In this document: positions 1-43,043 of the stretch, piece by piece
Position numbering within the stretch: position 1 is the first letter of the stretch
How the letters are laid out: the number at the start of each line of letters is the position of its first letter
Position numbers and translations under genes: made by a program
NCBI GenBank assembly: GCA_963681505.1
Contig: OY811980.1
Coordinates: forward strand, 8,127,118 to 8,191,117
Length of the DNA: 64,000 bases
Origin: Eunapius fragilis
Lineage: Eukaryota; Porifera; Demospongiae; Spongillida; Spongillidae
Direction of reading: 5' to 3'
Notes under the pieces: model-generated
The model's database searches: none
Seen by the model: the letters and a program-made list of their open reading frames with translations, nothing else
What the model was told of the DNA's origin: nothing

Positions 1-1542
1 TAGCACATATGATAACAGAGCTTCATGACACAACTTGTACTGGTCCTGGGAAGGGGGAGGAGGGAAAACAGCACAGTAGGCCTATTACCAAACCACCAAT
101 CACTAGATAATCCTCACTTCCTCCTCCTTCGCCATTTTCCTTCTCCCCTCTTCTCAACTTTATCTCTCCTCTACTCGCCCTTCCCTTTCTACCATGCCCC
201 CTCCCCTCCCTCCCCTCCTCCATCTCCCTCCCCCACCCCTCCTCTCCCTCCCCTTCCCTTCCCCTCCCCTTCCCTTCCCCTCCCCTCCCCTCATCCTCCC
301 TCCACTCCTCCCCTCCCCTCCCTCTCCCCTCCTCCCCTCCCCTCCCTCTCCCCTCCTCCCCTCCCCTCCCTCTCCCCTCCTCCCCTACCCTCCCTCCTCT
401 CCCCTCCTCCCCCTCTCCTCCTCCTCCCTCCCCCCTTCCCCCTCCCCTCCTCCCCTCCCCTCCCTCTCCCCTTCTCCCCTCCCCTCCCTCCTCTCCCCTC
501 CCCCCCCTCTCCTCCTCCTCCCCTCCCCCCTTCCCCCTCCCCTCTTTCCCTTACCACTCCCTGCACAAGGACAGGTCTCTGGGTTCTGGCTGCCTTTATG
601 GCTCGAAGGACATCCACTGTGCCTTCTCCCTTCATCTGTTCCAGACATGAGTGGATGGTTATGAAGGTACCAGTGCGTCCCATACCATCACTGTGCATAT
701 GGGTAGGGGCACGAGGAGGAAGTGGGTGGAGTCATTAAACATCATTTCCATGGTAACAGACTCACTTGCACATGACCACAATAGGGCCACTCCCACTGCT
801 GCTATAGGTCTTGTTGATCTGTGCCATCATCTCCAGAAGGGAGGAGAAGTTTGGTCGTCCATTCTCCACCCACGCGGTGTAATGGGTGTGACCTATGGAT
901 ATCCACGACAACTCTAATTATCAGCTTGATTATGTCATGCCCTGATCCCCCATCAGAGGTGATGGTGATTTGAGCACATGTAGTGTGCGAACTGTGAAGT
1001 CATTGTGAGTACTGATGGTGTCCTGTGTGATCTGAAAGGGGCCCACACTGAGGGTTGTCTCCATAGTGGGGGGCCAATATACACCACTGTCCTCCTGGGG
1101 GGTAAGGTGCTGAGTCCCCAGACCTTCCCAACATGCCTCTCCTCCTCACCCTCTCCCCCTTGCTGGGTGTGTACAGCTGGACCAGTATGGAACACTTGTG
1201 TTTTACCACCATTCTCCAGAGGTCAGTCACTGTGCCAGGCAAGGGGACTTGGGTGGCTATAAGCATGGCTGGTTTACGGTACCCCTATGGGATTAATGGC
1301 AGAACAGGTATAGTGTACTGGTTGTGAGACATTTAAGGCTTACGTTGACAAAGCTGGCATTGATGTACTCACATTCCTGATAAATGCACACCCTCTTACT
1401 GTCTCCTGAAGTGACAAAGGTTATTATTTCAGGCCATGGTGGTATGCTACTTACTGCGAACGTTGTTGCTATAGCGATTCTTGGCCTTATATTTTTCATA
1501 TTGAAATTCTTTGTGTTTGTACTGACAAAGTATCTCTAAACT
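1..1542 (-). pseudogene. Orphan RPTP D2 (second phosphatase domain) fragment, decayed
   Basis: Seven exons homologous to the D2 half of genes B-D: 1455-1542 (NRYSNNV), 1344-1405 (CEYINASFVN), 1150-1284 (FIATQ equivalent LIATQ), 954-1094 (SGVYWPP), 766-892 (WVENGRP), 555-690 (DGMGRTG) and 45 to the window edge (DQYKLCHEALL). No D1 or transmembrane exon lies directly upstream; gene A ends at 2530 instead. Two lesions are visible against gene B. The donor after the 954-1094 exon reads AT where B has GT. The next exon lacks 13 bases between two CATTACAC direct repeats, which shifts the frame just before the WVENGRP motif. I read it as a partial duplicate that decayed. A remote upstream exon or alternative splicing cannot be fully excluded, and the last exon runs off the window. 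Confidence 0.75.
186..552. repeat. Polypyrimidine (C/T) low-complexity tract
   Basis: Almost pure C/T on the plus strand, with nested repeats around the core CCCCTCCCTCTCCCCTCCT. It fills the last intron of the orphan D2 fragment. Genes B (about 13200-13295) and D (about 49900-49935) have shorter C/T tracts in the same intron, so the tract has expanded here. The proline-rich and glycine-rich frames it creates are not genes. Confidence 0.85.
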
Positions 1543-2529
1543 CTGGAAAGAAAAGCAGCAAATATCACAGCTGTCAATAACATGTAATCTCATGCGGGTA
1601 TGCATGACATTATGGTATGGGCCATACATGAGATGTTCTAGGGGTTCAGCCCCACCATATTCCATGCCTGTTGATAACCAATCCAACTAGGCTGAATATC
1701 CCTTATAACCTACAATGGTCTCCTGGACAATGTAGTGTGGAATACCATCACTCCAAAGATACCTTTAAAAGGAGGTCTTGCCTATCAAAATGGTTGAATC
1801 GAAATTGATGGCAAATGTGTTTAAGTAACACTTTTAAGATGGATTTTGAACACCTTTAAGCAGAGATATTATCTCTGCTTTAAGTACATTTTTATCGACT
1901 CGACTTTCTTCAAGGTAAGAAGCCTATATCCCACAATTGTTAGACCAGAAACTGTGATGTGTGCAAAACGCTGTCACATCTACAAAGACGTTACTCCTTC
2001 ATTTAATTCTTTGTACTAATTTGTCTTTGGTCGTTCTCTCCGGAGACGCCAGACATTGCGAATTTGCTCAAAACGACGTTTCCAACAAGGCCATTCGTCG
2101 GGTTTTGAAAAGCCAAACGGTTCTGGGGGTGTTAGACGGATATTCGCCATCGCTGCACCATGTAATGGTAAGGGGTTGCCACCAAAAATTAAATAATTAT
2201 CCCCCCCCCCCCCCCCCCACAGCGAATGCGCCGTATATACATAACACTACAGGAATGGCTTAAATGAACAACATTTTGCAAAAGGCAGTCTGCTTTTTAC
2301 AACAAAATGCCAAGTAGTGTTGCAATTGATTCTACAAAAAGCAGAGTAAAATATTCATACAAATGGTGGTTAAAAAAATTCATCATTCATTTCATTTCCT
2401 GATTGCAAGTTACATTTTTAAATCTAATACAATAACCTTTAATCTTGATTTTAATGGGCTTTGATATAACTTGGCAGCAAAAACATCATCACACTAATAT
2501 TGTCTGGCCACATAATGAGTTTATAGTTT
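1543..2529. other. Intergenic spacer, nothing coding recognised
   Basis: Spacer between the orphan D2 exons and the last exon of gene A. It contains an 18-base C homopolymer at 2201-2218. I searched it on the minus strand for D1 phosphatase exons (WPD, HCSAG, YINAS) and found none. A plus-strand open frame at 1961-2263 runs into the poly-C and has no recognisable domain. Confidence 0.6.
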
Positions 2530-5500
2530 CTAGTTGTATCCAACCACTTCATAGCAGTCCTGTCCACCTATTTTCATTTCACCATATGCATCACATGACT
2601 TCATGGTGATCACATCACTGAGAGAGATGTATGTATTGATTCAAACATGAGAGAGATGTATGTATTGGTTCAAACATGGGAGAGATGTATGTATTGGTTC
2701 AAACATGAGAGAGATGTATGTATTGGTTCAAACATGAGAGAGATGTATGTACTGATTCAAATTAAAACATGGGAGAGATGTATGTATTGGTTCAAACATG
2801 ATGTATTGGTTCAAACATGAGAGATGTGTGCATTGGTTCAAAATGGTGCTGGCAGTTATGCCTTACCGAACTTTAGAATGTGTATCATTTGATCCGATAG
2901 TGAAGGCTTCACTGTGGTCCATTGTTGTAAGAAAGGCTTAAGTGTGAACGTAATGTCATATTATAACACACCTTTTTCTTCTCATGCAGATCACAAGTAC
3001 TATGACAACAATCACCATAACAACCACAAGGATAACAAACTCAACTATAAGTGAGCCAGCAAGCACTCCTCCAGAGTATGAGTTGCTCATATTGTTTATG
3101 GTACCTTCAACATCACATGTCATTAGTTTGTGATATTGCCATGATATAGTCCTAACCTGGTGTGATGGTGGGTGTGTCACCTCCTGATGAAGGAATGTCT
3201 CCATTGTATGACTGTCCTGCAATGGTCACCATGGCTACCACACTGAACTGGTACACACCATTAGAACTGAGGTTGGTGATGTCCCCAGAGGTGGTGGTTG
3301 GTGGGAAGGTCTGACTAATGTACCCACCCGACTGCCTCTTTGAAGTGTTGGGAAGAGAACGATAATACACAGTGTACCCTGTAAGGATGCCATCTTGAGG
3401 GAGCCACTGGACAGCCAGCCAGGACACTCTGACAGATGTTGTATTGGTGGCTACTACCACCACTCCGGTCACATTGGCTGAAGGGTACAACATTAAAGCA
3501 TCATGCAGGTGTATGTGTGAACAAATGTAAGATACAGTAACAGCTATACACTCACGTATAGCTGCAGTACTGGTCTGTACTTGTTGTGGTGTCCCTGGTC
3601 CTGTGATGGTGTAACCAACGACAGAGAAGGTGTAGGGGGTCCTTGGTACCAGTCCTGTTATTGTCACTGGGGGTGTGGTTGTGTTGACTATTCCATTGGT
3701 GGAGTAGGTCACCTGATACATGATGATCAACCCATTGGGGGTAGGAGGGGGTAGCCATGTGAGTGTGATGGTTGTGAAGGTATTGTTGAAGGCTTGTAGT
3801 CCACTCACTGGACCAGGTGCTAGTGTGGAGAGAAATAATTCACCTCTTCAATATTCATCCACCTCACACTTACCACTTTGCTCAGTCACCACAAAGAGAG
3901 GAGAGGTATAAGGACCCATGGCTCCATCACTGTTGACTGCTGACACCTCAATGGAGTAGTTGGTATAAGGAGCCAGTTCAGTCACAGTCACTGCCCTACC
4001 AGAGGTAACTACTGTCCCTCTCACACCACTGGTCACAGGTCCATAGAAAACACTGTACCCCACTATCACACTGTTCTGGTCCACACAGGGGACTTCCCCC
4101 CAACTGATGTTGACAGTGGAGGAGGTCTTGTTCACTTGAGTGAGGCTGTTAGGAGGAGCAGAGGGAGCTGTTGGGAAGAGAAGGGAAGGGAGTCAGCCAT
4201 CTTGAGATGAGATCATTCACCTCACCTGTTGAGGAGGTGTTGACCATCACACTAGCTGGAGGGCTACTCCCTCCACCATTGGAGGCAGTGAGGGTGAGGG
4301 TGTAGGGACTGAACTCCTGCAGTCCAGTGATGGTGTACTGGGTAGCAGTGCCAATGGACACATTCCCACCACCACCACCACCACCAGCACACGGTTCCTG
4401 GTAGGTGTAGGAGAGGGTGTAGGTGGTACCTATCTCTCCAGCAGTCTGTGACCACATGACAGTGATGGATGTTGAGGTGACCTGTGCTACCATGGGTGAG
4501 GGGGATGATGGTACTGGGGAGGAGGGAGATGGTAATGGTTAAGTACCATAACTATAACTATAATACTCACATATCCATATCGCACCAGCACTCAGAGATG
4601 GCATATAAGTGCCCACAGCTATGACAGAGATGTTGTACTGAACGCCAACTTGAAGGTTGGTTAGGACATAAGAGGTAGAAGTGGTTGAACCACCACTTGT
4701 ACTTGGGACTCCATTAGCCACATAGTAGATATCATATCTGCTCACTGGACCACCTGAGGTTGGTGCAGTCCAAGAGACACTGACAGATGTGGGACCAGAC
4801 TGCACAGCAGTGACACCAGTGGGTGGGGCAGGAGGACCTGTATAGAGGTACATGTCTATAGGTACAAGACACTCTTCATAGGCAGTTCTTACCTGATACA
4901 CTGAGGGATGAGGTAGTGGATCTTGAATTGTAAATAGGCCCATTTGTTTTACACAAGTCAGTTGTGCAGCTATTGGTGACAGTGGTGACAGTGCATGTGT
5001 ACATCCCAGGTGCTCTCCCAGTAACAGTCAGGGTGTTGTTGTAAGTAGATGTTGGTGGATTTGTCACTATCTGAGAGGAAGCATAGTTTCCACCATTCAC
5101 AGGACTTCCATTGATGGTCCACTGCACAGTTGTAGGAGGAGAACTAGTGCTGGTGCAGGTCAACTGGAACACTGATGGATCAACATTTGTAGGTGTCAAC
5201 AGCTGAATCTGGACACCTCCTGTAATGTTAGGACCATCTGTGGGAGAGTCAACACTTCCATAACACATGTGATGTACTTTCCTCTCTACTTACAAGTGGC
5301 TGCTACAGAGAGAGCATAGCTATCAGGGGCTATTGGTACTGATGCTGCTAGTGTGAGATCAGTGTACATTCCAACACAGAGTGTGATGGTGGTATTGGTA
5401 CAACATTGAACACCATGTGGGAAGTCATAAGGAGTTCCACGATACAGCTCTACTCCTACTGACACATTTCGTTGACCCAACCCTCCAGGGGTGGTTACAG

Positions 5501-5701
5501 GGTCTGGTGTTGCTAGTGGAAACAGGGCTCCATTTGGTTGATACCACTGTCCACCTGTTATACCCTCACACACCAGAGGATACTGGTATGCTGATTGGTT
5601 GAATGTGCTCACTCTGTTTGTAACTGCTGAGAGAGACCACAGGCTGTTGTTGGCAGCCATCACAAACAGTACATTCTGATTCCAGGTGATCCTAGGTTGT
5701 C
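2530..5701 (-). CDS. Gene A: Ig/FN3 receptor with short tyrosine tail, no phosphatase
   Basis: Nine exons read from splice signals: 5294-5701 N-terminal Cys-rich domain; 4893-5237 Ig; FN3 at 4571-4837, 4226-4513, 3874-4167, 3556-3819 and 3157-3477; 2972-3104 transmembrane; 2530-2617 tail and stop. The first three exons are close relatives of those in genes B-D. The membrane segment (about 22 residues rich in V/I/L, 3010-3080) ends in CMRRK. The tail exon joins in phase 2 and reads on for 28 residues to TAG, with Tyr in AYGEMK, CYEVV and GYN. So the family head is joined to five FN3 domains and a tail of about 33 residues, without any phosphatase. It is predicted to be a type I surface receptor; the ligand is unknown. 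The tyrosines are possible phosphorylation or docking sites (inference). The 5' signal exon was not found; the first exon begins with two bases of a split codon. Confidence 0.8.
2621..2850. repeat. 27-base minisatellite in the last intron of gene A
   Basis: About seven or eight copies of a 27-base unit containing GAGAGATGTATGTATTGGTT followed by CAAACAT. Some copies are shortened. The array starts only a few bases from the acceptor of the tail exon at 2617, so it sits where the branch point and pyrimidine tract would be expected. Confidence 0.85.
4570..5701 (-). CDS. Gene A family head: N-terminal domain, Ig, first FN3
   Basis: The three exons shared by all four receptors. 5294-5701: Cys-containing domain with PLVCEGITGGQWYQP and GVQCCTNTTITLC, possibly a divergent Ig fold. 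4893-5237: Ig with FQLTCTS, VQWTING and GMYTCTV. 4571-4837: FN3 with PPTGVTAVQSG, VSVSWTAP and a YNISVIAVG end. The introns between them are 56 and 55 bases. A differs from B-D mainly in the last 20 or so residues of the FN3 exon (it ends SLSAGAIWI). All three exons are phase 1 at the 3' side, which keeps the block transferable as a unit. Confidence 0.85.
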
Positions 5702-6576
5702 CTGTGTGGAGAGTATGATGTAATCAACACTGGGATAGTAGCTTCTACGTGACAAGTGCTATTATGATTACAACCATAGATATTCGAGTACTATCTATGG
5801 CCCATTACTAGGCGTAGGAACGCCCCCGGAGGGGGGGGGGGGGGGGGGGGGGGGACGTGGGCGAAAGTCATACTTAATAGGTGAAAATGAAACGCCTATA
5901 TATACATACATATACACAGATCAAACAAAATAAGGATAACATTCAAAGAAAGACAAAAAGTGCTAAAGCCTATTTCATGATTGAAGGAAGTGATGCCCCA
6001 TCGTCAAAGCCAGTCCACTCCTCCACTTTAATTACCCTCGTTCGATGAATAATATGACTTCGGTTAGGCCATGAAATGTATGCCTCAACGCTACGTAACT
6101 TGTTAAAGCTAAACACGTTAGTATTTACCTTTACAATTGTGTGCATGTGCGCGTGTGTATGCGTCTGCATATGTGTAGGCCTATGTGTGCATCTGCGTGC
6201 GCTTAAAGCTGTGTGGCACAGTGATGAAACAAATAATTTAGCAGGGGTCTTTTTATGTGGGGCCGAAGCGGCGAAGGCGCCCAACGAAACACACATGAAG
6301 CTGGTCCGCGAACGTATAAAACAGACTAACCTGCGGCTAGGTGTGGAAGCGCACAAAGAACGATGCAAGCGAACGCACACATCCAAAGCTCTAGCAGATG
6401 TGTCTGGGAACGACGCCGTGATGACTGATTAATACGTTTATATCTGCCAGTTTGAATGTAGGGGTCTGAACATATAAACAACACCCTAAAGAGGGTGTGC
6501 ACGTGGCTAAATTTTAAAGAGATCATTATTATCCCTGCTAAGTTATAATTGCGTCATGTGCTAGCTTCCACTCCTA
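5702..6576. promoter_or_regulatory. 5' flank of gene A; promoter not resolved
   Basis: The signal-peptide exon and promoter of gene A should lie here or further right, but I could not identify them. The stretch holds a 24-base G homopolymer (5831-5854) and a weak plus-strand open frame (6076-6432) that is low complexity at its start and matches nothing I know. No TATA box or start motif is convincing. Confidence 0.3.
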
Positions 6577-6990
6577 TAAGGGAGCATCCATAAATGATGT
6601 TACGCTTTTTTGATGAATATTGGACCATACATACATATGTTGCCCACATTTGTCACAAATGTAAGAACCATACCCTTATACCCCACCTTTAAATGATGTC
6701 ACATTTCATTACACCATACCCCCCGTCCCCCCTTACCCGCCACGCACAAGTATGACGTTTCTTTATCAGTTCTCATTCCACAGCAGGCTGATTTCTATCA
6801 ATCAACATATACTGATGTACTAGTATAGTGTTTTTGTATTTTTTCAAGTAATTGGCTTTGTTCACACATGCAAGCAGAGTTTTTTAATCACATTAAATGA
6901 CAATTGGCACAGTTGTTTAATTCAAGCAACAGTGTATCTTCTTCCCATGGTTCTTGAAAGTGTTCATTCAATGAAATTATTGGGAGTTGA

Positions 6991-7602
6991 TCATCTATAT
7001 ATATAATGGGAACCACTTTGAACACTATCAGGTGGAAGGTTTTTGTGTTGCTCAGTAGCAATGTCTTCAATATTCACCCAATCTGCTGCTTCTCCATCAA
7101 GGCGGTCACCAGTTATTACTAACACTTCATTTCCCAATCTTATTACAATACGATGAGGAACTACAAGTTGGTCAATGATTGGGGCTCCTATGTATTTGTC
7201 TGTGCTGCTGAAGCATCGTTTTTTACAGGCCACATGACTGACAAGACCGACCTTGTAAATCATCCTGAATTGATGGCAGTAAAGGTCATTTGGTAACCTG
7301 TGAAAGACACGTCCGTCCGCTGTAGAGATCAATCCCAATTCAGCCTGGCCTTGGCATTGAGTAATGTTTTCCTCCGCTGGCTTATAAGGTAGACTACTCC
7401 AAAACACTAAAAGCTGTCCTTTCTTCTTAAGGGACACCATTGCTTGTTCCTCAAACTTCTTTACGGCATCGGACAAATTGTCCGCCTTTTTCATGTCACT
7501 CCAGATATTGATGTTTTCATGGTTTGTTTGATCTTTTTTGATGTGTGTGTGCCTTCTAGTAGGCTTCGCGCACACGGAAATACAATTCTCTCTTGTTGCC
7601 AA
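6991..7602 (-). CDS. Unrecognised open frame inside the TIR element
   Basis: An open frame of about 200 codons with no in-frame ATG at its start; the first ATG gives a product of about 165 residues beginning MKKADNLSDAVKKFEEQ. It has basic patches near the N-terminus, scattered Cys (VACKKRCFSS) and a tail with VVPHRIVIRLGNEVLVIT. It has no repeats and looks compositionally like protein, but I recognise no domain. It lies between the inverted repeats, so it may belong to the transposon. It could also be one exon of a host gene. Function unknown. Confidence 0.35.
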   Translation of the reverse strand: MATRENCISVCAKPTRRHTHIKKDQTNHENINIWSDMKKADNLSDAVKKFEEQAMVSLKKKGQLLVFWSSLPYKPAEENITQCQGQAELGLISTADGRVFHRLPNDLYCHQFRMIYKVGLVSHVACKKRCFSSTDKYIGAPIIDQLVVPHRIVIRLGNEVLVITGDRLDGEAADWVNIEDIATEQHKNLPPDSVQSGSHYIYR

Positions 7603-7868
7603 CGGATGCCGCCATCATATTAATTCCGAGTATTTTTCATACAGATATTATTATTATTTTAAACGAAACATGAGGATGATGTACAACACACAAACACAAT
7701 TATAAGTTATTTCACTAAGTTGATACTCCATATACAACATTTACAGTTTTAAGCTACACAATGTTACTAAACAAAAAACAATAAACTGGAACGGAGAAGG
7801 TGAGGAGACTACAGATATTAATAATTAGTTCATTACATAACACATTACACACACAAACGGATCTAGCT

Positions 7869-9503
7869 CTATAACAGTGGGATAATTCTAGAGAGGATGG
7901 CTGTAGCATTGGCACGAACTAGATGGACATTAAGCCGGCCATAAATGTCATTCAGCACAACTGACTTGGACTTGCATGTAGAGGTGGCGAGTCTGGAGGC
8001 AATTGATGAAATGATAGAAGAGGCCTCATCGCCCCAAGCTCCATACGATTCTACCACCATGGGGACACATACCCATCCAAGTTCCGAACATTTGGGATCA
8101 TTAGCTTGATGTTTCCTCGCCTCTGTGGCCTGAGCAGCAGACTTGGCCAAGACTCCCGCTTCCAAAAGGGTTAAAGGGTTTAGCGGAGACATGATGGAGA
8201 CATCTAGTGCTGCTGGTTTGCCTAAGAACCAATTGGATAGCAAGATATCAGCTGGGCGAGTCTTATTGTGGTCATGTGTGAGATTGTTGCCCACTTCCAC
8301 CTGAACACCTATGTGTGCACGCCGACAGGTCTCCACCAGGATATCTCTGATCTTGTTGTGGCGGGAGACCACATCTCCACCATATTTGCAGGTGACTGCA
8401 TGGTGGCCAAGGTGATCAAGTACACCGGGACACAGGGTACACTGAGAGCCCTCTGAAGTATCGAGGCCAAGCCACCACTTTACAGCAATCTGGAAAACAG
8501 GTGGATCTAGATGGAGTCCAAGGCCCTCAGAGGGAGTTACAGACAGCCAGGCTGAAGCATGGGGTGAAGAGATGGACAATAGACGGGCTTTGTCTGCCAA
8601 TGAAGATAGAGTTAGCAGATCGTCGAATAGATGGTCATCAATTTTGGAAGACAGTGTTTTCTGAATAGGAGGGGAAAGAAGAACAGACTCAACATTAATG
8701 GCTTCTACTGGTGAAACTAAGTTGTTAAAGACCTCCACAGCTTGAGATAGGTGGTGGACTGATTTGGATCCAAAGCCCGATGAACAAATGGAGGAGATGT
8801 AAGCTGCAGAAGAGTGGTGAGACAAAGATCGCAGGCCTAGGCCTCCTCTGCTCAGGCTGAGCTGGGCTTGTTTCCAGGCAGTATCAGAAGTATCAACACC
8901 AGTGCACTCACTGAAAACCCTACGGATGTCATTGTCAAAAAGGCTGAGAGCTTGTGAAGATAGAGATGGTGGTGTTGATCGGGCTAGGTGTACCAGCTTA
9001 CAAAACCCTCCACAGAGACGAAGGACCTGGACCAATGCAACCTGGGGATCCAACACACCAACTTGCTCAAGTTGGGATAGCAGAGCACTGGCCTCCATCC
9101 GCTTGGTAGCGATGAATGAAGAGCAAAAGTCCAGGTCTCCAATGGCCACACCAAGTATTACAATGTTTGGCTCGTCAGATGCTTTCATCCCAGAAGGGAA
9201 CACATCAAGATTGTGGCGGGAGAAAACCTCACACTTTGACAAGTTGACAGAGATACCTAGAGCTGGACCCTGAACCTGGAGAAGACTGAGGCACCGGCAC
9301 AGAGACTGCCTTGGGCCAGCCAAGACACCATCATCTAGGTACCATGCATGGAAAAGGTTGCTGGAACAAGCTTTGTCTTCTGAGATTGCTTTAACAAGGA
9401 CATTTAATACAAGAGAGAATAGCAGGGGACCAAGGGGATCTCCTTGTTGGACACCCGATTCTGAGGTCAAACAACGAGTATTTAAAAAATAATAAATTAA
9501 CAA
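7869..9503 (-). CDS. 5'-truncated non-LTR retrotransposon: RT end plus R2-type endonuclease
   Basis: A 544-residue open frame. Near its start are reverse transcriptase motifs SGVQQGDPLGPLLFSLVLN and HAWYLDDG (YxDD active site), so the fingers and upstream part of the RT are missing. The C-terminal third has a zinc-binding pattern C-x2-C-x8-H-x4-C (CTLC to HHAVTC) followed by RPADILL and, 13 residues after its Asp, AALDVSI. That CCHC plus PD-x-D order is typical of R2-like restriction-type endonuclease (RLE) retrotransposons. No stop interrupts the frame, so it was inserted fairly recently. It is truncated and cannot be autonomous as seen. Two related remnants lie at 10972-11503 and 17061-17246. 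Confidence 0.8.
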   Translation of the reverse strand: MLIYYFLNTRCLTSESGVQQGDPLGPLLFSLVLNVLVKAISEDKACSSNLFHAWYLDDGVLAGPRQSLCRCLSLLQVQGPALGISVNLSKCEVFSRHNLDVFPSGMKASDEPNIVILGVAIGDLDFCSSFIATKRMEASALLSQLEQVGVLDPQVALVQVLRLCGGFCKLVHLARSTPPSLSSQALSLFDNDIRRVFSECTGVDTSDTAWKQAQLSLSRGGLGLRSLSHHSSAAYISSICSSGFGSKSVHHLSQAVEVFNNLVSPVEAINVESVLLSPPIQKTLSSKIDDHLFDDLLTLSSLADKARLLSISSPHASAWLSVTPSEGLGLHLDPPVFQIAVKWWLGLDTSEGSQCTLCPGVLDHLGHHAVTCKYGGDVVSRHNKIRDILVETCRRAHIGVQVEVGNNLTHDHNKTRPADILLSNWFLGKPAALDVSIMSPLNPLTLLEAGVLAKSAAQATEARKHQANDPKCSELGWVCVPMVVESYGAWGDEASSIISSIASRLATSTCKSKSVVLNDIYGRLNVHLVRANATAILSRIIPLL

Positions 9504-9613
9504 GTCACGCTATCGTTACCATACATACATACATACCCTACATATCATGTCCAATCCTGTCACGTTAATACATACATATGGTCAGCGTGACATCATTTTT
9601 GAACGCTCCCTAA

Positions 9614-9850
9614 ACCGCAGGTAGGTCGATTTAGAACCGTCTAACCGTATCAGCAAAATATAATTTGTGATGGTCGGGGTTTTAAATCAAGACCGATGAA
9701 GTGCTTTCGTGGAGCTTGGCGTTGAAGTACAGTAGATCCCACTTCATATCATTATCCATTATGACATGGTGTATTGGACGTTTTATGCAAAGCCAGGCTT
9801 GTGCTTTTTCAAACCCACTCTTTCGAGCTAAATGACCTTCGTATTTTTAT
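9614..9850. other. Spacer with no recognised feature
   Basis: Between the right end of the TIR element and the 22-base minisatellite. No coding signal, splice-site-flanked homology or repeat was seen. Confidence 0.5.
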
Positions 9851-9868
9851 TGCCACATAAGATGTGTT

Positions 9869-10340
9869 GCATATACTGAACTGGTCTGCTGCATGTACTG
9901 GATTGGTGTATTGCATGTACTGGACTGATGTGTTGTATGTACTGGACTGATGTGTTTTATGTACTGGACTGGTGTGTTGCATGTACTGGACTGGTGTGTT
10001 GTATGTACTGGACTGGTGTGTTGCATGTACTGGACTGGTGTGTTGTATGTACTGAACTGGTCTGCTGCATGTACTGGATTGGTGTATTGCATGTACTGGA
10101 CTGATGTGTTGTATGTACTGGACTGATGTGTTGCATGTACTGGACTGGTGTGTTGTATGTACTGGACTGGTGTGTTGCATGTACTGGACTGGTGTGTTGT
10201 ATGTACTGGACTGATGTGTTGTATGTACTGGACTGGTGTGTTGCATGTACTGGACTGGTGTGTTGCACTGGTGTGTTGTACATGTATGTACTGGACTGAT
10301 GTGTTGCATGTACTGGACTGATCATAATGTGTTGCATGTA
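9869..10340. repeat. 22-base minisatellite
   Basis: About 20 copies of a 22-base unit near TGTACTGGACTGRTGTGTTG plus CA or TA. Units alternate between -GCATG- and -GTATG- forms. A stray half-unit reappears at about 10543-10562. The long minus-strand frames full of THQSST and SPVH are products of the repeat. Confidence 0.9.
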
Positions 10341-10971
10341 TGGACCATAGTTGTCGGATTGTAAGCAGATCACTCTATCAGCTAACACTGCCTCATCATT
10401 AGATATTATTTTTTCTTGCTCAAATATGATATCAGTGTATAATGTCACCATATCAGACAGAGATGGATTTCTATTGCAAACTTTATAAGCCCTGGTTAAT
10501 ATAATTCCGTGATCCGCATACAATCCGCGATCCACTGACAGCAATGTACTGGACTGGTGTTGTTTCAACTTTGCACTGCAGGGCCATAGCGGAGGGGGGG
10601 GGAAGGGGGGGGGGGGGGGGGGGGGGGGATTGATGGGGTCTGATGACCTCCCTGTGGCCCATCACAGCTGTGCATTCCATAACATACCGCTGATTGTTTA
10701 ATGATACAATTCATCTGCATGCATTTAGATTAGAATAGGGTCACGCATATCTGATTATCCGACCAACCCCTCTTCGAAGGTCTGGCTATGGCCCTGAGTA
10801 CTATAGGATCACCTTAATTACCTTGGTCACCAGTGTCATTTATGCCTCAGTGCATAATAATTTGCATTTACAATTTAAAGTATTAACTATTAAAAATAAT
10901 AACAATATTACACCGTACAGCACACCAACAAAATCAAAGTCACAGCAGCAACCACCCCACATCCACACACC
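10341..10971. other. Spacer with G homopolymers
   Basis: No gene recognised. It contains two adjacent G runs (10594-10602 and 10605-10628) and unique AT-rich sequence. Confidence 0.5.
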
Positions 10972-11503
10972 TCAACCCCCCTCCTCCGAATGTCGAAACC
11001 TTGCACTGGAGAGCAAGGCTGTAGCATTGACTCTCACGAGCGAAAAGCTTAGCCTCTGGTACAGGATAGTGGTAGCCTGTGATTTGTTACATCCCTTTGT
11101 ATGGCTAGATGAGCTACAAGACGCAAGAAGGATTGTTGTGCTTCCGTGCCCCAGCATCCATATGACTCCACAGCTAGGGGAATGCACACCCATCCAACCT
11201 CAGCACACTTAGCTTCATTGGCACATTATGCTTTCTCACCTCAGCAACCAGAGCAGATAACCCACTCCCACACCTCACCTCTGCTTCAGTCAAAGTGGTT
11301 GGGTTAAGGGGTGAAGTGATAGTGAGGTCAAAGGCAGCAGGTTTGCCAAAGTGCCAGTTGTTAACAAGTACGCCAGCAGGACGAGAGTGCAGCCTATCAA
11401 GACCAAGACCACTTCCAACTTCGACCTGACCTCCTAAGCAAGCCCTATGACAGGACTCCACAAAAACATCACGAAGGAGGGTGGTCTTGAAAAAGCTATT
11501 CAC
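10972..11503 (-). pseudogene. Remnant of an RLE retrotransposon C-terminus
   Basis: The frame at 11174-11503 aligns with the endonuclease part of the element at 7869-9503: SCHRACLGGQVEVGSGLG, SRPAGVLVNNWHFGKPAAFD and TSPLNPTTLTEAEV. The catalytic Asp of the PAD motif is Gly here. The C-terminal continuation is in another frame (10972-11193, ending LVRVNATALLS), so at least one frameshift separates the halves. The zinc finger and RT are absent. Confidence 0.75.
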
Positions 11504-12304
11504 AGTGGTAGATCAGTTAAATGATGCCTTTAGCAAGACCCAACCTTGGTTGGCACAAAAGGCACTTACTAGAGCTGGTTGTTTAGCAGTAAGTAAGATT
11601 AGTGGGAATGCTTTACTCACAAAGACATTACAGCTTCGGAGACAGATGCAGGCTCATTACTAAAAACTGTCCGTGATTTTAATGCACTGAAGCTTACATG
11701 CAGCAACTTATTACATGGTGAAAGGAATTATTTCTATGACACCTCTTATACTCATACAAAGCTATCTGGGCCTATTCCAGTAGACCTTCAGGGAGATGTG
11801 TTGTAACAGAGGAAATAGGGGGCAGAGATGCTGTTCATATACTACCACTAATATGGTAATGCACAAAGGAATGCAGACTTCTTAGTAGTGATAAACTTGA
11901 TTTAGTGTTGCGAATAAAATCAGTATTCCAAGCATGCATTGAGGGTATCAGAGTAGAACTTGACTATCTAGATTCAGGGTGCATTTATGTTCATCATGAT
12001 GACACCACTGAGTTAGATAATCATACATAACACGCGCTTTAGTGAACTCAGTGGGCATCCCATCTGTTGTGAGCTTCCTTTGTGCTTTAGTCCGTTGAGG
12101 GTGACAAAGGCAGCAACAACACACTATCCCATTGCGAAGATTCAGTTGGCTTCTATACTCAGCTCGGAAAAGCCATAGGACCATTGGCAAGTGGCAGACA
12201 TTACTGAAAGCACAAATTTTTAATAAATAGAGGAAACAAGTAAAAAAGAAAAATGAGACAATTAGCACCTCTTTTGATTAAGTCACATTACACGCACTGA
12301 ATAT
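11504..12304. other. Spacer with possible degenerate open frames
   Basis: A short plus frame (11481-11663, ending QLRRQMQAHY) continues after its stop as readable peptide-like sequence to about 11800. A minus frame lies at 11948-12268 (Cys-rich core CCCCLCHPQR). Neither matches a family I know. They may be relics of another transposon. Confidence 0.3.
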
Positions 12305-12425
12305 TTTGTCTCATTTTTCTTTTCCTAAAACCTTGTTCCCTTTCTTTTTACACCACCTTTGCCACCAATTCCTATATCCCACCAACTTTCTCGTTAGAGA
12401 ATGTTTTTCTTTACTTGTATTTACT
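12305..12425. mobile_element. Solo copy of the foldback-arm repeat family
   Basis: Contains CCTTGTTCCCTTTCTTTTTA, CACCACC and CTCGTTAGAGAATGTTTTT in the same order as the right arm of the foldback element at 38103-38232, with point changes and small indels. Only one arm is present. It directly precedes the 25-base minisatellite. Confidence 0.7.
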
Positions 12426-12435
12426 AGGGTTTCAC

Positions 12436-12755
12436 ATTGCTCCCATCCTATGGTGCTCCGTGTACCCCCATCCTATGGTGCTCCATGTACCCACATCCTA
12501 TGGTGCTCCGTGTACCCCCGTCCTATGGTGCTCCATATACCCCCATTCTATGGTGCTCCATGTACCCCCATCCTATGGTGCTCCACATACCCCCATTCTA
12601 TGGTGCTCCATGTACCCCCATCCTATGGTGCTCCATGTACCCCCATCCTATGGTGCTCCATGTACCCCCATCCTATGGTGCTCCATGTACCCCCATCCTA
12701 TGGTGCTCCATGTACCCCCATCCTATGGTGCTCCATGTACCCCCATCCTATGATG
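12436..12755. repeat. 25-base minisatellite
   Basis: About 13 units of 25 bases built on TCCTATGGTGCTCCATGTAC plus CCCCA. Copies are 90-100 percent alike by eye. Because 25 is not a multiple of 3, the array gives similar Pro-rich frames in all three plus frames; none is a gene. Confidence 0.92.
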
Positions 12756-12924
12756 ATCTATACATGTCGCACTGCCCACATCATAAGGTCCTTCACTCAT
12801 TCTAATAAAATGCATCACATCTCACCCAAGCAGTGAGCTAAAAATGCACGACTATGTCCACACAGTGTTCTGTGCTAAACATCAAATAATCACATAACTA
12901 TCCATAATACAGTTTCAATGGACA

Positions 12925-14321: not shown

Positions 14322-15589
14322 CTGAATTAGATTATTATGCAGATGCAGTCAATATGCTATTGAAATTGGATTAACAGAACTCTTGTGTCATCATGCATTG
14401 TGCATAACTGGATGAGCGTTTGGCTGCCAAAAACATCAATGCTACTCATTCATTGAATGAACATGGTTCTCTTCAACGTAGAAAATGTTTTTTTTACTCA
14501 CCCATTTCACCCATTTCACCCATATTTACCCAGGTATTGTGTCCAAGAGAGATGTGCTTTGTGCACAAAAGCAGGTACATCTCCAAGAAGGTCATTTTTC
14601 CTCACACTGTCATCCCTTATAGAGAGCTCTGAAAACACTGTCATCCGACTGTGTCTTCAGAGGCCTTTATAAGGGATGACAGTGTTTCCAGAGGCCTCTA
14701 TAAGGGATGACAGTGTCTTCAGAGGCCTCTATAAGGGATGACAGTGCCTTCAGAGGCCTCTATAAGGGATGACAGTGTGAGGAAAAATGACCTTCTTGGA
14801 GATGTACCTGCTTTTGTGCACAAAGCACATCTCTCTTGGACACAATACCTGGGTAAAAATGGGTGAAATGGATGAAATGGGTGAGTAAAAAAACATTTTC
14901 TACGTTGAAGAGAACCATGTTCATTCAATGGATAACACTGCCATCCCTTATAGAGGCCTCTGAAAACCCTGTCATCCCTTATAGAGGCCTCTGAAAACAC
15001 TGTCATCCCTTATAGAGGCCTCTGAAAACACTGTCATCCCTTATAGAGGCCTCTGAAGACACTGTCATCCCTTATAGAGGCCTCTGAAGACACTACAGTC
15101 ACCTTCCTCATCATACAACTGTATCATCACATATGTCTACACACCGTGCTCACATGCTGGTAAACTATATATGACTGACTACCTGATCAGAACAATCTCT
15201 TGCTCATAAGTAAAATGATACAGACCTCGGCTTCAAATTACATCCTCCACAACTGTGTCATACTAATATGTCCACCATCTTGCTAACAGTCCATACAACA
15301 AATACTAACCTTGTACTGTTTCTCATATCCAGACATGCCCACTTCCTTCTCCACATCCTGTAACCTGCTCATCACACTGCATAGGTCAGCAATGACCATC
15401 TCAGTATCACCACACACCACCAGTTCATTCAGAGATTCATGAATGAAGATGTATTGATCCTATTAAAATAGAAGATTAAATTTGGTGCTTCCATCCAACA
15501 GAGCATCCTTCTCTTCTAGTACTGCAAAGCATTTGTCTGTTATCCTATTGTCCAAATATTATTTCTAATTATGTGGAGAGATACACCGC

Positions 15590-15621
<32 letters not shown>

Positions 15622-18600
15622 ACCATTGTTCTAACCAGTTCTTGCACCATCTGAACCCTCTGGATTCTCAGCTTCTTCACACAGTTGTAGACATCAATGG
15701 TCTGGTCTGTCTGCATTGCTTGCATCACTATGTCCAGAGCTATGAAGGTCCCTGTTCTACCAACTCCTGCACTGCAGTGGACTACAAGGGGGGCATCATT
15801 TGAAATAGGGTGGACCTTGCGAATGTGTCTGCCAAAATGAACAAGAGACATAGCGTTGCTAGGGACTCCATGATCTGGCCACCCAGTGTAGTGGAAATGG
15901 GTCACCTCTAGAGGTGAGCTCTCATTGGAAGATGACTGTGGGGTTAAATGACATCACCTCTCTTGTATACACCATGAGCACACACCCTTACATCTTTAAT
16001 GATAAGCTTTCTCACTTCATATTCAGCATATGACACCATAGTGAGCAGCTGGATAGAGAGGGTATCCATGTTCATGGTCCCTCCTACCTCCTTTGGCCAG
16101 TACTGCTCACACTTTGTCTGGGGGAGTGAGAGGGGTTGTTGTGGGAGGGAAGTTTAGATTATTTTAGTTTAACTTTGCCTATGCAGATAAATAATGACAG
16201 CATATGCAGAATGCTTCATTACCTAAAAGCAGTGAATATCATTACTGATCAATGTTATATCAAACTTCTCATTTGCCAGGCTGTGAAGTATGTATTGAGT
16301 GTTGTGGCACATGCATGAATGGACTGACATCATGTGTATGTAGTCCATGTGTATGTAGCCCATGTGTATGTAGTCCATGTGTATGTAGTCCATGTGTATG
16401 TAGTCCATGTGTATGTAGTCCATGTGTATGTAGTCCATGTGTATGTAGTCCATGTGTATGTAGTCCATGTGTATGTAGTCCATGTGTATGTAGTCCATGT
16501 GTATGTAGTCCATGTGTATGTAGTCCATGTGTATGTAGTCCATGTGTATGTAGTCCATGTGTATGTAGTCCATGTGTATGTAGTCCATGTGTATGTAGTC
16601 CATGTGTATGTAGTCCATGTGTATGTAGCCCATGTGTATGTAGTCCATGTGTATGTAGTCCATGTGTATGTAGTCCATGTGTATGTAGTCCATGTGTATG
16701 TAGTCCATGTGTATGTAGTCCATGTGTATGTAGTCCATGTGTATGTAGTCCATGTGTATGTAGCCCATGTGTATGTAGTCCATGTGTATGTAGTCCATGT
16801 GTATGTAGTCCATGTCTATGTAGTCCATGTGTATGTAGTCCATGTGTATGTAGTCCATGTGTATGTAGTCCATGTGTATATAGCCCATGTGTATGTAGTC
16901 CATGTGTATGTAGTCCATGTGTATGTAGTCCATGTGTATGTAGTCCATGTGTATGTAGTCCATGTGTATGCATGCCATTAATATTCAAAGGTCAGATTTG
17001 TAGCAATGTTACGGCCAGTTTACATTTGGATGAGTAACTGTCCCCCCCTGGTGTAAGCATCTAACTCGTAAGGGGAGGGCCCAGGAATTGGCTCACACAA
17101 GGGTCATTCAGGCGGCCATACAGGCAGGAGACCACCTTGGACTTGGGGGTGTTGGTCCTTGTGGCAAGGTGTGGTGTAAGCCAAGAAAAGGCTTGAACAG
17201 CTGCTCCAATCATTTTATATGTTGTTTTTATAAACAGTGCATGCATTGTGATATAATTTGAAATGGTGTTTATGCATTTTTGTAATGTTACCTTCTATCT
17301 CACTTTATTTATGACTAAATTAATTGATAATTGTAATACTCAATCACGCCCAATCGTTTCCTTCTTTCTAGACCACACCCACTCACACACCTTTCCAAGT
17401 TCTTTACATCTGGTCAGCATGACGATGGTTGCTAGGCGATACTCAAGCAACATTCTCAGGAAGTGTTGTGTGGTGTTTTGAAGTGGACCTAAGTAGAAAT
17501 GTGACAGCAGTGAGGTACCATTGGTGGGAAGAGTACACCATACCTTGGGCAGCTATGTAAGCCTTTGGCTTATGGAGACCCTTGGGTGAAGTGGACCAGA
17601 GTGAGATGTAAGATAAAGATGGTGTGATTGGTGTGTGAACATATCCAAAGTGGTAAATACAGCTGGTGACCACATTGCTTTTGAAGGGAATAACTTTTGG
17701 TGAAAATTGCAACTAAGTTGTTGGGTTTCCGCAAAATGTTTACAACTAAATTGAGCAAATTAATTTTAACAGCATGACAAAATTAAATAATTAGTTGTGT
17801 TCAGAGATCAGATATATCGATTATGAAACCAATAATATGCTCCACCTCTTATTTTTCCATGTGCATATTTGTGAACACTGGTATGTGTAACTTACATCGA
17901 TGAAGCTGGCATTGATGTAGTCTGAACCAGCTATGCCTGTTTGTTGCTTCAACATCACACGATTGTGGTCATCTGTGTACCAGTTGGATATTAGTAGCAG
18001 TACTCTCCATACAGGGGGGCTAGCTATATGCATTACATGGGTATATGTTCTTGAACCTGTTCAGTGAGGGATTGCTGTCTGCTACACTATGGGATGCCAC
18101 AGGCTCCTTGGGAATGGTCTGGGAAGAAATGCATACCTCATTTGCAGGGGGTAAAGGTCATTACCATACCAACACACCTCAAATAGTTTCTTAAAACCAC
18201 TGTTCAGGTCAGTATGCATTTTTTTCACATGCTCAACAAACATTAACACTGGAATGGGCTCCACTACAGATAAAAATTTGTAGACAGCAAGTTAATACAA
18301 TTATTCATTTAACCTCTTATATCTTCATTGCTCAAATCTGCAGGTACAGGAACAAATGTTGTCATGGCAACTTCTCCTTCAGTGATGTCTTTGGTCTCAG
18401 CATCCTCATCACTGTCATTATTAACCATTAATTTCATTGGAAATTCCTTATCATTTTGTTGGGTATTTGGCTTCATACGACTCCTCCCCTTCCTGCTTCT
18501 CCTCCTGATGTCATCAGGTGACCTGGTCATGTGACTACTAGTTACTTTATTTGCTTACATGGTGATAGCAATCAAGATGGCTGCCAATATGATAACAGCA

Positions 18601-24600: not shown

Positions 24601-25684
24601 GTAAGTGCCCACAGCTATGACAGAGATGTTGTACTGAACCCCAACTTGAAGGTTGGTTAGGACATAAGAGGTAAAAGTGGTTGAACCACCACTTGTACTT
24701 GGGACTCCATTAGTCACATAGTAGATATCATATTTGCTCACTGGACCACCTGAGGTTGGTGCAGTCCAAGAGACACTGACAGATGTGGGACCAGACTGCA
24801 CAGCAGTGACACCAGTGGGTGGGGCAGGAGGACCTGTATAGAGGTACATGTCTATAGGTACTCTTCATAGACAGTACTTACCTGATACACTGAGGGATGA
24901 GGTAGTGGATCTTGGATTGAGAGTAAACCCCATTGCTCCACACACTGGTGAGCAGGTAGTGAAGACAGTGCATGTGTACATCCCAGGTGCTCTTCCAGTC
25001 ACAGTCAGGGTGTTGTTGTAAGTAGATGTTGGTCGATCTATCACTATCTGAGAGGAAGCATAGTTATCACCATTCATTGGACTTCCATTGATGGTCCACT
25101 GCACAGTTGTAGGAGGAGAACTAGTGCTGGTGCAGGTCAACTGGAACACTGGTGGATCAACATTTGTAGGTGTCAACAGCTGAAACTGGACACCTCCTGT
25201 GATGTTAGGACCATCTGTGGGAGAGTCAACACTTCCATAACACATGTGATGTACTTTCCTCTCTACTTACAAGTGGCTGCTACAGAGAGAGTATAGCCCA
25301 TAGTGCCTGATGCAGCTATGCCTGATGATGCTGCTAGTGTGAGATCAGTGTACATTCCAACACAGAGTGTGATGGTGGTATTGGTACAACATTGAACACC
25401 ATGTGGAAAGACAGAAGGAGCTCCACGATACAGCTCTACTCCTACAGACACATTTCGTTGACCCCAGGATTGACTAGGGGTTACAGTGTCTGGTGTTGCT
25501 AGTGGAAACAGGGCTCCATTTGGTTGATACCACTGTCCACCTGTTATACCCTCACACACCAGAGGATACTGTGATCCAGATACCACACTCACTCTTGGTA
25601 GGACCACTGAGAGGGTCACCAGGCTGTTGTTGGCAACCATTAGATTTGCACCATTCACATTCCAAAAGATTCCAACAGTCTGGC
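12925..25684 (-). CDS. Gene B: RPTP with about 14 Ig-type exons
   Basis: A receptor-type tyrosine phosphatase read as 32 exons ending in TAA at 12925-12927. Order: N-terminal domain, Ig, FN3, twelve Ig exons, transmembrane, juxtamembrane, D1, D2. D1 keeps GWPDHGVP and HCSAGVGRTG, so it should remove phosphate from tyrosines inside the cell. D2 keeps the Cys but has Met for the P-loop His and WVE for WPD, so it is probably weak or regulatory. All shared exons have intact splice signals except where noted. Introns have been invaded by a foldback element, a MITE pair, a 15-base minisatellite and a retrotransposon scrap, which makes it the longest copy. The signal-peptide exon is missing from the model. 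It lies head-to-tail with genes A, C and D. Confidence 0.85.
14451..15094. mobile_element. Foldback (long inverted repeat) element in the gene B D1-D2 linker intron
   Basis: Left arm 14451-14625 and right arm 14757-14930 are near-perfect reverse complements, from CATTGAATGAACATGG inward to CTGTCATCCCTTATAGAG. The loop and the right flank (to 15094) carry a 31-base tandem unit (ACTGTCATCCCTTATAGAGG plus CCTCTGAAAAC): about four units in one orientation inside, five in the other outside. It occupies the intron position that holds the 20-base minisatellite in genes C and D. No coding capacity. Confidence 0.85.
15310..18263 (-). CDS. Gene B D1 catalytic phosphatase domain exons
   Basis: Exons: 18178-18263 (EPIPVLMFVEHVKKMH), 18037-18118 (NRFKNIYP), 17896-17972 (DDHNRV, DYINASFID), 17544-17580 (KPKAYIAAQ), 17391-17488 (LATIVMLTRC), 15992-16117 (CEQYWP), 15636-15935 (GWPDHGVP, VVHCSAGVGRTG) and 15310-15459 (DQYIFIHESLNELVV). 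All catalytic signatures of an active classical PTP are present. The residue matching the substrate-binding Tyr of the NRY motif is Phe in NRF. The intron between 16117 and 17391 is enlarged by a minisatellite and a retrotransposon remnant. Confidence 0.85.
15593..15621. repeat. 29-base C homopolymer just inside a D1 intron
   Basis: Starts 15 bases past the donor of the WPD/HCSAG exon on the coding strand, where it reads as G. Genes C and D have no such run in this intron. Confidence 0.95.
16334..16974. repeat. 15-base minisatellite in a gene B intron
   Basis: About 42 near-perfect copies of GTATGTAGTCCATGT (15 bases), with rare TAGCCC, TGTCTATG and GTATATAG variants. Since 15 is a multiple of 3, it stays open in several frames on both strands (HMDYI, THGLH, SPCVC, VVHVY). 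These are not proteins: it lies between D1 exons with intact splice sites. Confidence 0.95.
17061..17246 (-). pseudogene. Short RLE retrotransposon 3' scrap in a gene B intron
   Basis: Encodes SWLTPHLATRT, KSKVVSCLYGRLND and a short tail, matching the very C-terminal region of the element at 7869-9503 (ASRLATSTCKSKSVVLNDIYGRLN). Only this end remains. It sits between two D1 exons. Confidence 0.65.
18314..18673 (-). CDS. Gene B transmembrane and juxtamembrane exons
   Basis: 18559-18673: ITVVAISDGSS, then a Gly/Ala/Val/Ile-rich span that crosses the membrane. 18314-18522: juxtamembrane segment starting SPDDIRRRSRKGRSR (basic stop-transfer) followed by an acidic stretch NDSDEDAETKD. This segment is longer than, and after the basic start unlike, the one in C and D (LLRLHTQQDG). 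The transmembrane exon is phase 1 in, phase 2 out, the same phases as the unrelated transmembrane exon of gene A. Confidence 0.8.
18806..19127. mobile_element. MITE-like inverted repeat (about 320 bases)
   Basis: Outer arms of about 100 bases are reverse complements: CCCAGCCTTGGGTTTTTAGG on the left and its complement near 19090-19110. The internal motif ATGGGAATATCGCAAAAACC also appears inverted at 19020-19045. It is non-coding. It lies in the intron between the last Ig exon and the transmembrane exon of gene B, ending only 24 bases from the Ig donor. Genes C and D lack it there. Confidence 0.8.
19151..25684 (-). CDS. Gene B ectodomain: head plus twelve Ig exons
   Basis: Head: 25271-25684, 24882-25214 and 24564-24833 (FN3). 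Ig exons: 24185-24469, 23764-24069, 23416-23700, 22826-23143, 22099-22383, 21359-21676, 21018-21305, 20643-20960, 20288-20575, 19902-20240, 19511-19840 and 19151-19459. Two Ig flavours alternate: one with LTLTCNIQLDPSVDSTVMVN, the other with MYTLICNGTLVGNTSLTPVV. Typical Cys, Trp and GQYTC or GNYIC motifs are present. Exons are phase 1 at both ends. The N-terminal exon differs from A, C and D (FWNVNGANLMVANN), so B is the most diverged head. Confidence 0.83.
21800..22010. mobile_element. MITE copy 2 of the TGGGACAGTGTCCAGC family
   Basis: Left end GAGACAGTGTCCAGC (first bases degraded) and right end GGACACTGTCCCA followed by TA. The interior shares AGCAAAAGAA and AAGGGTGATT with the copy at 25905-26145. 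It lies in a gene B intron between two Ig exons. Confidence 0.7.
22431..22626. repeat. CA/CACACT microsatellite
   Basis: ACACACTCACAC-type dinucleotide and hexanucleotide array in a gene B intron, ending about 195 bases before the donor of the Ig exon at 22826. The Thr-His frames in it are artefacts. Confidence 0.95.
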
Positions 25685-35400: not shown

Positions 35401-36170
35401 ACACTGGTGGTGAACCAGTGCAGCTGATTAGGGGAGAGGCTATAGTGGTAACGGTGCATGTGTACATCCCAGGTGCTCTCCCAGTCACAGTCAGGGTGTT
35501 GTTGTAAGTAGATGTTGGTCGATCTGTCACTATCTGAGAGGAAGCATAGTTACCACCATTCACTGGACTTCCATTGATGGTCCACTGCACAGTTGTAGGA
35601 GGAGAACTAGTGCTGGTGCAGGTCAACTGGAACACTGGTGGATCAACATTTGTAGGTGTCAACAGCTGAAACTGGACACCTCCTGTGATGTTAGGACCAT
35701 CTGTGGGAGAGTCAACCTTTCCATAACACATGTGATGTACTTTCCTCTCTACTTACAAGTGGCTGCTACAGAGAGAGCATAGCTAGTAGGGGCTGATGTA
35801 GCTATGCCTGATGATGCTGCTAGTGTGAGATCAGAGTACATTCCAACACAGAGTGTGATGGTAGTATTGGTACAACATTGAACACCATGTGGGAAGTCAT
35901 AAGGAGTTCCACGATACAGCTCTACTCCTCGTGACACATTTCGTTGACCCAACCCTCCAGAGGTGGTTATAGGGTCTGTTGCTAGTGGAAACAGGGCTCC
36001 ATTTGGTTGATACCACTGTCCACCTGTTATACCCTCACACACCAGAGGTTTCTGGGTTGCTGTGTCGTTTAGTGTGCTCACTCTGTTTGGTACTGCTGAG
36101 AGGGACACCAGGCTGTTGTTGGCAATCATTACAAACAGTTCATTCTGATTCCAGGTGATCCTAGGTTGAC
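28150..36170 (-). CDS. Gene C: RPTP with shortened Ig ectodomain
   Basis: 24 exons ending in TAG at 28150-28152, with a possible ATTAAA poly(A) signal about 116 bases on (28029-28034). Same plan as genes B and D but only three full Ig exons follow the FN3, and a fourth has lost its core in frame. D1 has GWPDHGVP and HCSAGVGRTG. D2 reads VVMC joined to NDGMGRTG. The juxtamembrane acceptor used in B and D is changed from AG to AT. An in-frame AG 20 bases downstream would drop six residues and could rescue splicing. Otherwise the copy looks functional. Predicted membrane phosphatase acting on phosphotyrosine; ligand unknown. Confidence 0.83.
29719..30600. repeat. 20-base minisatellite in the gene C D1-D2 linker intron
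   Basis: About 44 units of CTAACAGAGGAGGTTATGGT (20 bases), with a recurrent GCT variant. Three units fit exactly every 60 bases and there are almost no indels, a sign of recent expansion. The same array in gene D (51222-52540) has about 66 units. Confidence 0.95.
30693..32366 (-). CDS. Gene C D1 catalytic phosphatase domain exons
   Basis: Exons: 32281-32366, 32133-32214, 31984-32060, 31893-31929, 31740-31837, 31398-31523, 31042-31341 and 30693-30842. Landmarks: YDDHNRVML after splicing, DYINASFID, KPKAYIAAQ, RLATIVMLTRCTEDGK, KCEQYWP, GWPDHGVP, HCSAGVGRTG and DQYVFVHDCVNELVV. The acceptor before DDHNRV is the AG of CACAG; in B and C the CAG six bases further upstream seen in D is mutated, which settles the boundary. 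Catalytically complete by motif. Confidence 0.86.
32089..32115. repeat. G homopolymer in a D1 intron of gene C
   Basis: On the coding strand this is a C run in the intron between the NRFTNVYP-type and DYINASF exons, upstream of the acceptor. Gene D has the same run, uninterrupted and slightly longer (54035-54062); gene B has only a short one. Confidence 0.95.
32423..32770 (-). CDS. Gene C transmembrane and juxtamembrane exons
   Basis: Transmembrane exon 32656-32770 (Gly/Val/Ile-rich span ending in AILIAVT). Juxtamembrane exon from 32601 or, if the lost acceptor still works, about 32619, to 32423; it carries RRRKRSGLLRLHTQQDG and later GLNYVKTNQHNESENIK. The acceptor that reads CCAG in B and D reads CCAT here. 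The next AG (CATTAG) keeps the frame through a split codon that still gives Met. Confidence 0.7.
33161..36170 (-). CDS. Gene C ectodomain: head, three Ig exons, one gutted Ig exon
   Basis: Head: 35757-36170 (N-terminal domain), 35343-35700 (Ig), 35018-35287 (FN3). Ig exons: 34217-34504, 33838-34152 and 33309-33590. The last, 33161-33253, is only 93 bases: it starts like the PPPTVTIT exons of B and D, then jumps to SGQQYVDTSIAVSS and the normal donor. The middle of the Ig fold, including its first Cys and Trp, is gone, yet phase 1 is kept at both ends. The Ig exons nearest the membrane in B and D are absent. Confidence 0.82.
34752..34953. repeat. Polypurine (GA-rich) tract in a gene C intron
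   Basis: About 200 bases of GGGAGGGAAGGAGGGAGG-like purine-only sequence on the plus strand, between an Ig exon and the FN3 exon. It can form triplex-type structure in principle (general knowledge). Glu/Gly/Arg and Pro/Ser frames in it are artefacts. Confidence 0.9.
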
Positions 36171-42834: not shown

Positions 42835-43043
42835 GTAAGATGAGTGTGTGTGTGTGGTGTGTGTGCTGTGTGTATGGGTGAGTGTGTGTGTGTGCATGTG
42901 TATGGGTGAGTGTGTGTGTGCATGTGTGTGGTGTGATTCTGTGCTGTGTGTTTCTATAACTTCACATCAACCACACCCACATTCCACTCATGCAATTAGG
43001 TTCATTTGTAGGGATGCAATGTGAAGACCATTAGTGTGTGGTA

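Follow-up and report, generated by a model that had tools for sequence, protein, structure and literature searches.

One receptor outer part on two intracellular ends, phosphatase domains or a short tyrosine tail, predicted from a gene cluster of the sponge Eunapius fragilis

What kind of receptor is encoded by a gene that stands among receptor tyrosine phosphatases, carries their outer part and ends without their enzyme? The question is raised by gene A, which shares the 64,000-nucleotide stretch of the Eunapius fragilis genome analysed here (the window; G000:C10:8127118-8191117) with three receptor tyrosine phosphatase (RPTP) genes, B, C and D. An earlier note on this DNA had proposed that gene A joins the RPTP head to a tyrosine tail in the manner of paired immune receptors, and we followed the proposal within the window and across the genome searched (218.9 Mb, 24 contigs). 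The observation on gene A is borne out and its extent is larger, with the tail exon at no fewer than 40 places and a recurring block of receptor genes on the same chromosome. The genome is predicted to hold dozens of receptor genes with one outer part, whose intracellular end is either phosphatase domains or a short tyrosine tail.

Rebuilt from its splice sites, gene A comprises nine exons, E2 to E10, on the minus strand (5701-2530), which join into an 801-codon open frame whose only stop is the terminal one. All acceptors are AG and all donors GT, and the introns are of phase 1 in the extracellular part and of phase 2 between membrane and tail. The exons encode, in order, a head of 135 residues (E2, 5294-5701), an Ig domain (E3, 4893-5237; Pfam Ig_3, 4.5e-8), five FN3 domains found by Pfam as fn3 in the frames of E4 (4571-4837), E5 (4226-4513), E6 (3874-4167), E7 (3556-3819) and the membrane-proximal E8 (3157-3477), a transmembrane segment (E9, 2972-3104, with a phase-2 donor) and a short tail including the stop (E10, 2530-2617), DVITMKSCDAYGEMKIGGQDCYEVVGYN. 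The tail exon fits the splice phase, as had been claimed, since the phase-2 join of membrane to tail leaves one frame open through E2-E10. A 29-bp tandem repeat on the same strand lies in the last intron (2619-2824), and its last unit provides the pyrimidine tract beside the tail acceptor. This minisatellite, which reaches the acceptor, is far longer in some paralogues (L010, L012).

A tblastn search of the window confirmed that the first three exons of gene A match the RPTP genes, with amino acid identities to B, C and D of 73-87% for E2, 79-81% for E3 and 91-95% for E4. The heads of these genes lie on the minus strand at 25272-25670 (B), 35758-36168 (C) and 59808-60221 (D). The same search supported the claim that gene A has its own FN3 exons, membrane exon and tail: E5, E9 and E10 match gene A only, and E6-E8 find just weak FN3 similarity outside it (26-37%), with no close match in B-D. 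The head itself has no Pfam match, its profile has no PDB match up to an E-value of 1, and its AlphaFold model, at a mean pLDDT of 57, is not interpretable. Elsewhere in the window, two FN3 exons of another gene lie between C and D on the opposite, plus strand (41671-42881). At the edge of the cluster, two open frames lie within positions 63024-63817 on the minus strand; one has a weak match to the RAG1 importin-binding domain (PF12560, 7e-5; 23.0 bits, where the cut-off is 23.3), and the other has no Pfam match and a zinc-finger-like Cys/His pattern by eye.

The first coding exon of gene A must sit upstream of 5701. No candidate for a first, signal-peptide exon is common to the family in the upstream flanks searched (0.7-2.5 kb in the other genes). 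The candidate for gene A, MCAFACIVLCALPHLAA, which lies some 680 bases ahead of E2, is uncorroborated; one candidate is common to L054 and L056, another to L060 and L061, and gene D has weak ones. Among the upstream regions compared, a conserved block was found between genes C and D only, where about 1.5-2.5 kb of similar sequence, absent from A and B, precedes the heads (36168, 60221). A retroelement, seen as a 546-codon reverse-transcriptase open frame (RVT_1) at 7869-9509 on the minus strand, also lies upstream of gene A.

Below gene A, the window contains an orphan second phosphatase domain (D2; 489-1542, minus strand), which has 88-90% nucleotide identity with the D2 regions of genes B-D, and which looks broken because its first part is spread over two frames. 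Neither a D1 nor a juxtamembrane exon of gene B's kind was found within positions 1-12900. Continuation of the donor at 2972 into phosphatase exons fails for these, the only ones that the window has below gene A: E9 joined to the D2 acceptor at 1542, the one acceptor used in this join test, stops after two codons. Gene A's own protein thus has no phosphatase domain. A junction can be placed in the interval 2015-2234, above which the sequence follows the 3' flank of a tail copy (L017; 79.6% over 515 positions) and below which it follows a phosphatase gene (L001; 85.2% over 922 positions). The simplest account is that recombination left the orphan D2 behind and that gene A is a tail receptor. 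The junction and the orphan D2 would also suit a reading in which decay is confined to gene A, as a chimeric product of recombination stranded before a broken D2, even if the rest of the family works, and this reading can further point to the lack of an established first exon and to the isolation of gene A, which stands alone amid phosphatase genes on our map of the chromosome. However, none of the nine exons is interrupted, splice sites and phases are preserved throughout, and a family-wide first exon was equally not found in the other genes (flanks of 0.7-2.5 kb), so that we regard decay of gene A as unlikely, if the least unlikely of the alternatives weighed here.

The tail of gene A is not a one-off exon; that possibility is ruled out by the at least 40 genomic places and by the 44 tail units in the loci that we fetched. 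The tail exon occurs at 40 places, with ten further part-matches that represent adjoining tail units, mostly on C10, the chromosome of gene A, and otherwise on C1, C11, C16 and C19; a search with the membrane and tail sequence as query adds further tail places, with 45 on C10 alone. The 44 units come from 53 fetched, partly overlapping loci, and 38 of them terminate in the common stop, one of these terminal tails being damaged by an internal stop. The family motif pair is YGEI-x7-YEVV, within the consensus DVITMKSCDAYGEIRTGGQDCYEVVGHN, and the pattern YxxPhi-x7-YxxPhi is retained in 36 of the 38 terminal tails. Of the three tail motifs that the earlier note had picked out (AYGEMK, CYEVV and GYN), the first two correspond to the family pair; the tyrosine of GYN is not typical of the family, the position being His in 36 of the 38 and Tyr in two. 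The M of YGEM is peculiar to gene A, with I in 43 of the 44 units.

Additional tail units preserve the frame, each step being 19 codons long, and give two units each in L060 and L061 and five in L052, where the five-unit tail exon (4406-4720) supplies a single receptor with additional YGEI motifs. The data do not establish purifying selection on the tail, because the codon bootstrap of its dN/dS of 0.82 (25 of 30 distinct tails) spans 0.57-1.68; the head, also at 0.82, is not decisive, and the four motif columns of the tail are less variable than its other columns at p 0.06 only. Most tail genes of the recurring block that are built like gene A (L039-L050) have a second tail exon 1.4-2.7 kb past the first, in a different acceptor context, which is either an alternative last exon or a remnant; four of these second exons lack the acceptor AG and one lacks the stop.

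We refer to genes built like gene A as FN3-tail, or T1, genes; their recurrence speaks against a chance arrangement. The whole set E2-E10 is found in order in six of the 21 T1 genes fetched (L049, L051, L052, L053 and two in L057), a sample that includes two pairs of near-copies (L039/L040 and L042/L043). Most of the others keep the exon order without E5-E6; the exceptions are L054 and L056, which miss more exons, L044, which has only a distant tail, and L058, which was fetched from E7 on. The membrane donor was checked in 15 of the 21, and in 11 of these it lies at the same place, in phase 2 and with an open frame. Two damaged copies (L039, L050) have a stop ahead of the usual donor, and no donor position could be assigned in L041 and L045. 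Damage of this kind in tail genes counts against the paired-receptor reading.

To view the layout along the chromosome, we merged matches to the head (101), the last FN3 domain (73, weak ones counted), the membrane and tail (91) and the phosphatase domain (the listed part of 192) into a map of C10 from 6.9 Mb up, from which part of the fragmentary head matches is omitted. A block consisting of a T1 gene on the plus strand, a phosphatase gene on the plus strand and a tail gene on the opposite strand (T2) is repeated ten times from 6.97 to 7.37 Mb, as judged by eye among the matches listed; one of the ten blocks has a T2 gene to which no head was matched, and the heads of some T1 genes are truncated. 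The two kinds of receptor are thus clustered together. Directly seen as phosphatase genes are L059, B, C and D, and the phosphatase or tail labels of most heads are given by map position; two heads that are phosphatase-type by position (7692372 and 7755641) precede a last FN3 domain of the tail-gene kind.

One case of sharing is that of the T2 gene L060 and the adjoining phosphatase gene L059, which are alike from head to first FN3 (89% of nucleotides over 1.6 kb). Their membrane exons and first juxtamembrane exons are 95% identical, and they have in common a second juxtamembrane stretch with VTYEVV before they diverge into tail and D1-D2, respectively; L061 resembles L060 in the parts common with L059. 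Near-identical outer parts on different cytoplasmic ends are therefore present in T2 and phosphatase genes, while gene A and B-D stand at 73-95% amino acid identity. Genes B, C and D lack the membrane exon common to L059-L061, with no match in the window, which counts against the paired-receptor reading.

The ITAM consensus is YxxL/I-x(6-12)-YxxL/I. The tail of gene A (YxxM-x7-YxxV) and that of the family (YxxI-x7-YxxV) have a spacing within the ITAM range and V as the second +3 residue; this second motif, YxxV and not YxxL/I, counts against an ITAM reading. YxxPhi is also the endocytic signal bound by AP-2, and its presence at both sites in 36 of 38 terminal tails would suit sorting equally, with YGEM/YGEI and YEVV as the signals and the tail genes as recycling adhesion or capture receptors. 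We consider such a sorting function improbable, given that the constant seven-residue spacing, the in-frame addition of units and the tyrosine-bearing juxtamembrane sequence held in common with a phosphatase gene suit phosphotyrosine signalling better. That both ends are inhibitory, the tail tyrosines recruiting SH2-bearing phosphatases like ITIMs to make one family with two mechanisms, is the least probable alternative: the juxtamembrane VTYEVV of L059 and L060 matches the ITIM consensus, but the terminal motifs form a pair with ITAM spacing, and the tyrosine is preceded by Ala or Cys/Ser and, in most, by Asp/Glu at the second position ahead of it, features that are not known from ITIMs.

The two end types are intermingled among the heads. 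A maximum-likelihood tree of 59 of the 101 head matches requires 18 changes for each label (shuffled means 20.0 and 19.1), seven and six of them forced by well-supported branches; a recount that left two heads unlabelled (8222145 and 8223587, with no phosphatase match beside them) gave 17 changes for phosphatase and 18 for tail. With these labels, constraint to a single clade of tail-type heads lowers the log-likelihood by 225.8, and a common origin of such heads is rejected (p-AU 3.3e-6). Across eight cassettes, phosphatase genes agree with one another in 95.8% of head nucleotides, T2 genes do so in 95.4%, and the two types agree with each other in 95.6-95.8%; phosphatase and T1 heads are 85% alike. 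No private pairing was seen, because in these eight cassettes heads of the same cassette are no closer than heads of different ones (p 0.32 for nucleotides, 0.22 for amino acids). The outer parts appear to be kept alike by exchange across both kinds of receptor, for which gene conversion and unequal crossing-over are possible routes.

Gene A itself is likely a mosaic, in which a head from the pool of phosphatase and inverted-tail (T2) genes sits on an FN3-tail body, before an orphan D2 at a recombination junction. It looks so because its head is on average nearer to the phosphatase/T2 pool, its Ig domain is nearest to a gene in phosphatase position, and close copies of E5-E8 were found in T1 genes only, among the genes compared. 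The head has a nucleotide identity of 92.6% with phosphatase heads (eight), 92.5% with T2 heads (eight) and 87.2% with T1 heads (seven); the tree places it in a group of 21 (support 94/88) in which every other tail-type entry is T2, and the heads nearest to it belong to T2 genes (92.2 and 91.9%). The head of the T1 gene L053 (91.4%) counts against this, being as near to that of gene A as the head of the phosphatase gene L059 (91.2%). Among the genes compared, the Ig domain is nearest to a copy at position 5675 of L051 (94.5% of nucleotides), whose gene counts as phosphatase-type by map position, and E4 is near-identical everywhere (94.8-99.2%).

Both an opposing enzyme and a reader of the tail have candidates in this genome. 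The D1 catalytic exon of gene B (15540-15953, minus strand) carries WPDHG and HCSAGVGRTG, and both signatures are kept in genes C (starting at 31287 and 31191) and D (53221 and 53125), also on the minus strand, so that action of the D1 domains of B-D on the tail of gene A is possible. At L102, tandem SH2 exons both have SYK as their best match and ZAP-70 as the next (PDB), and kinase-like frames follow them, as judged by eye. Syk-related proteins are reported from sponges and hydra (PMC9486129).

We somewhat favour a reading in which gene A is part of a large paired-receptor system, with the shared head, Ig and first FN3 domain mounted on either phosphatases or a two-motif tail. After ligand binding, a kinase of the Src type would act on the tail, whose phosphorylated form would be the docking site for a signalling kinase of the Syk type with tandem SH2 domains, and phosphatase receptors binding the same ligand would oppose that signal. 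The likeness to paired receptors drawn at the outset gains from the existence of a family, from the recurring block and from heads unsorted by end type, which uphold the shared head and the resemblance; opposite signalling, like expression and the ligand, we infer.

KIR and SIRP are vertebrate paired immune receptors. With such receptors the family has in common near-identical outer parts, gene clusters, differing cytoplasmic ends and an exchange that homogenises the outer parts; it differs in that one end is itself the phosphatase domains and not an ITIM, that the other is a two-motif tail of its own, and in its different domains and dozens of copies. Gene conversion between paired receptors is described for primate CD300A and CD300C (PMC12447643). 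In the allorecognition complexes of Botryllus (fuhc) and Hydractinia (Alr), receptor families at one locus, as here, have motifs of the ITIM and ITAM types, and the ampullae of Botryllus express receptor phosphatases along with Syk-family kinases (PMC12065747). The likeness to these systems lies in the motifs, the locus and the kinds of enzyme present, and in the sponge the phosphatases belong to the receptor family itself and carry its head. Genes B-D resemble R3-type receptor tyrosine phosphatases (PMC5336234) in their Ig and FN3 domains and tandem D1-D2, and the D1 of gene B is nearest to RPTP alpha, epsilon, S and LAR (PDB); gene A differs from receptor tyrosine phosphatases in lacking a phosphatase domain, and its head in lacking a Pfam or PDB match. 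In the excerpts of open-licence PMC literature searched, no family is described in which the same head is combined with phosphatase ends as well as tail ends.

More tentatively, and rather doubtfully on present grounds, the locus might be a chromosome-scale self/non-self complex of an early-branching animal, in which a repeatedly exchanged pool of heads is combined with an inhibitory enzyme and an activating tail in sister receptors, instead of recruitment through ITIMs and adaptors. If the paired-receptor reading is true, paired activating and inhibitory recognition would have arisen outside the vertebrates with another inhibitory solution, in which the partner receptor contains the phosphatase itself. 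The repeated block is a concrete candidate for a recognition locus in this animal, and would offer a direct test of how shared heads stay alike across opposite signalling ends.
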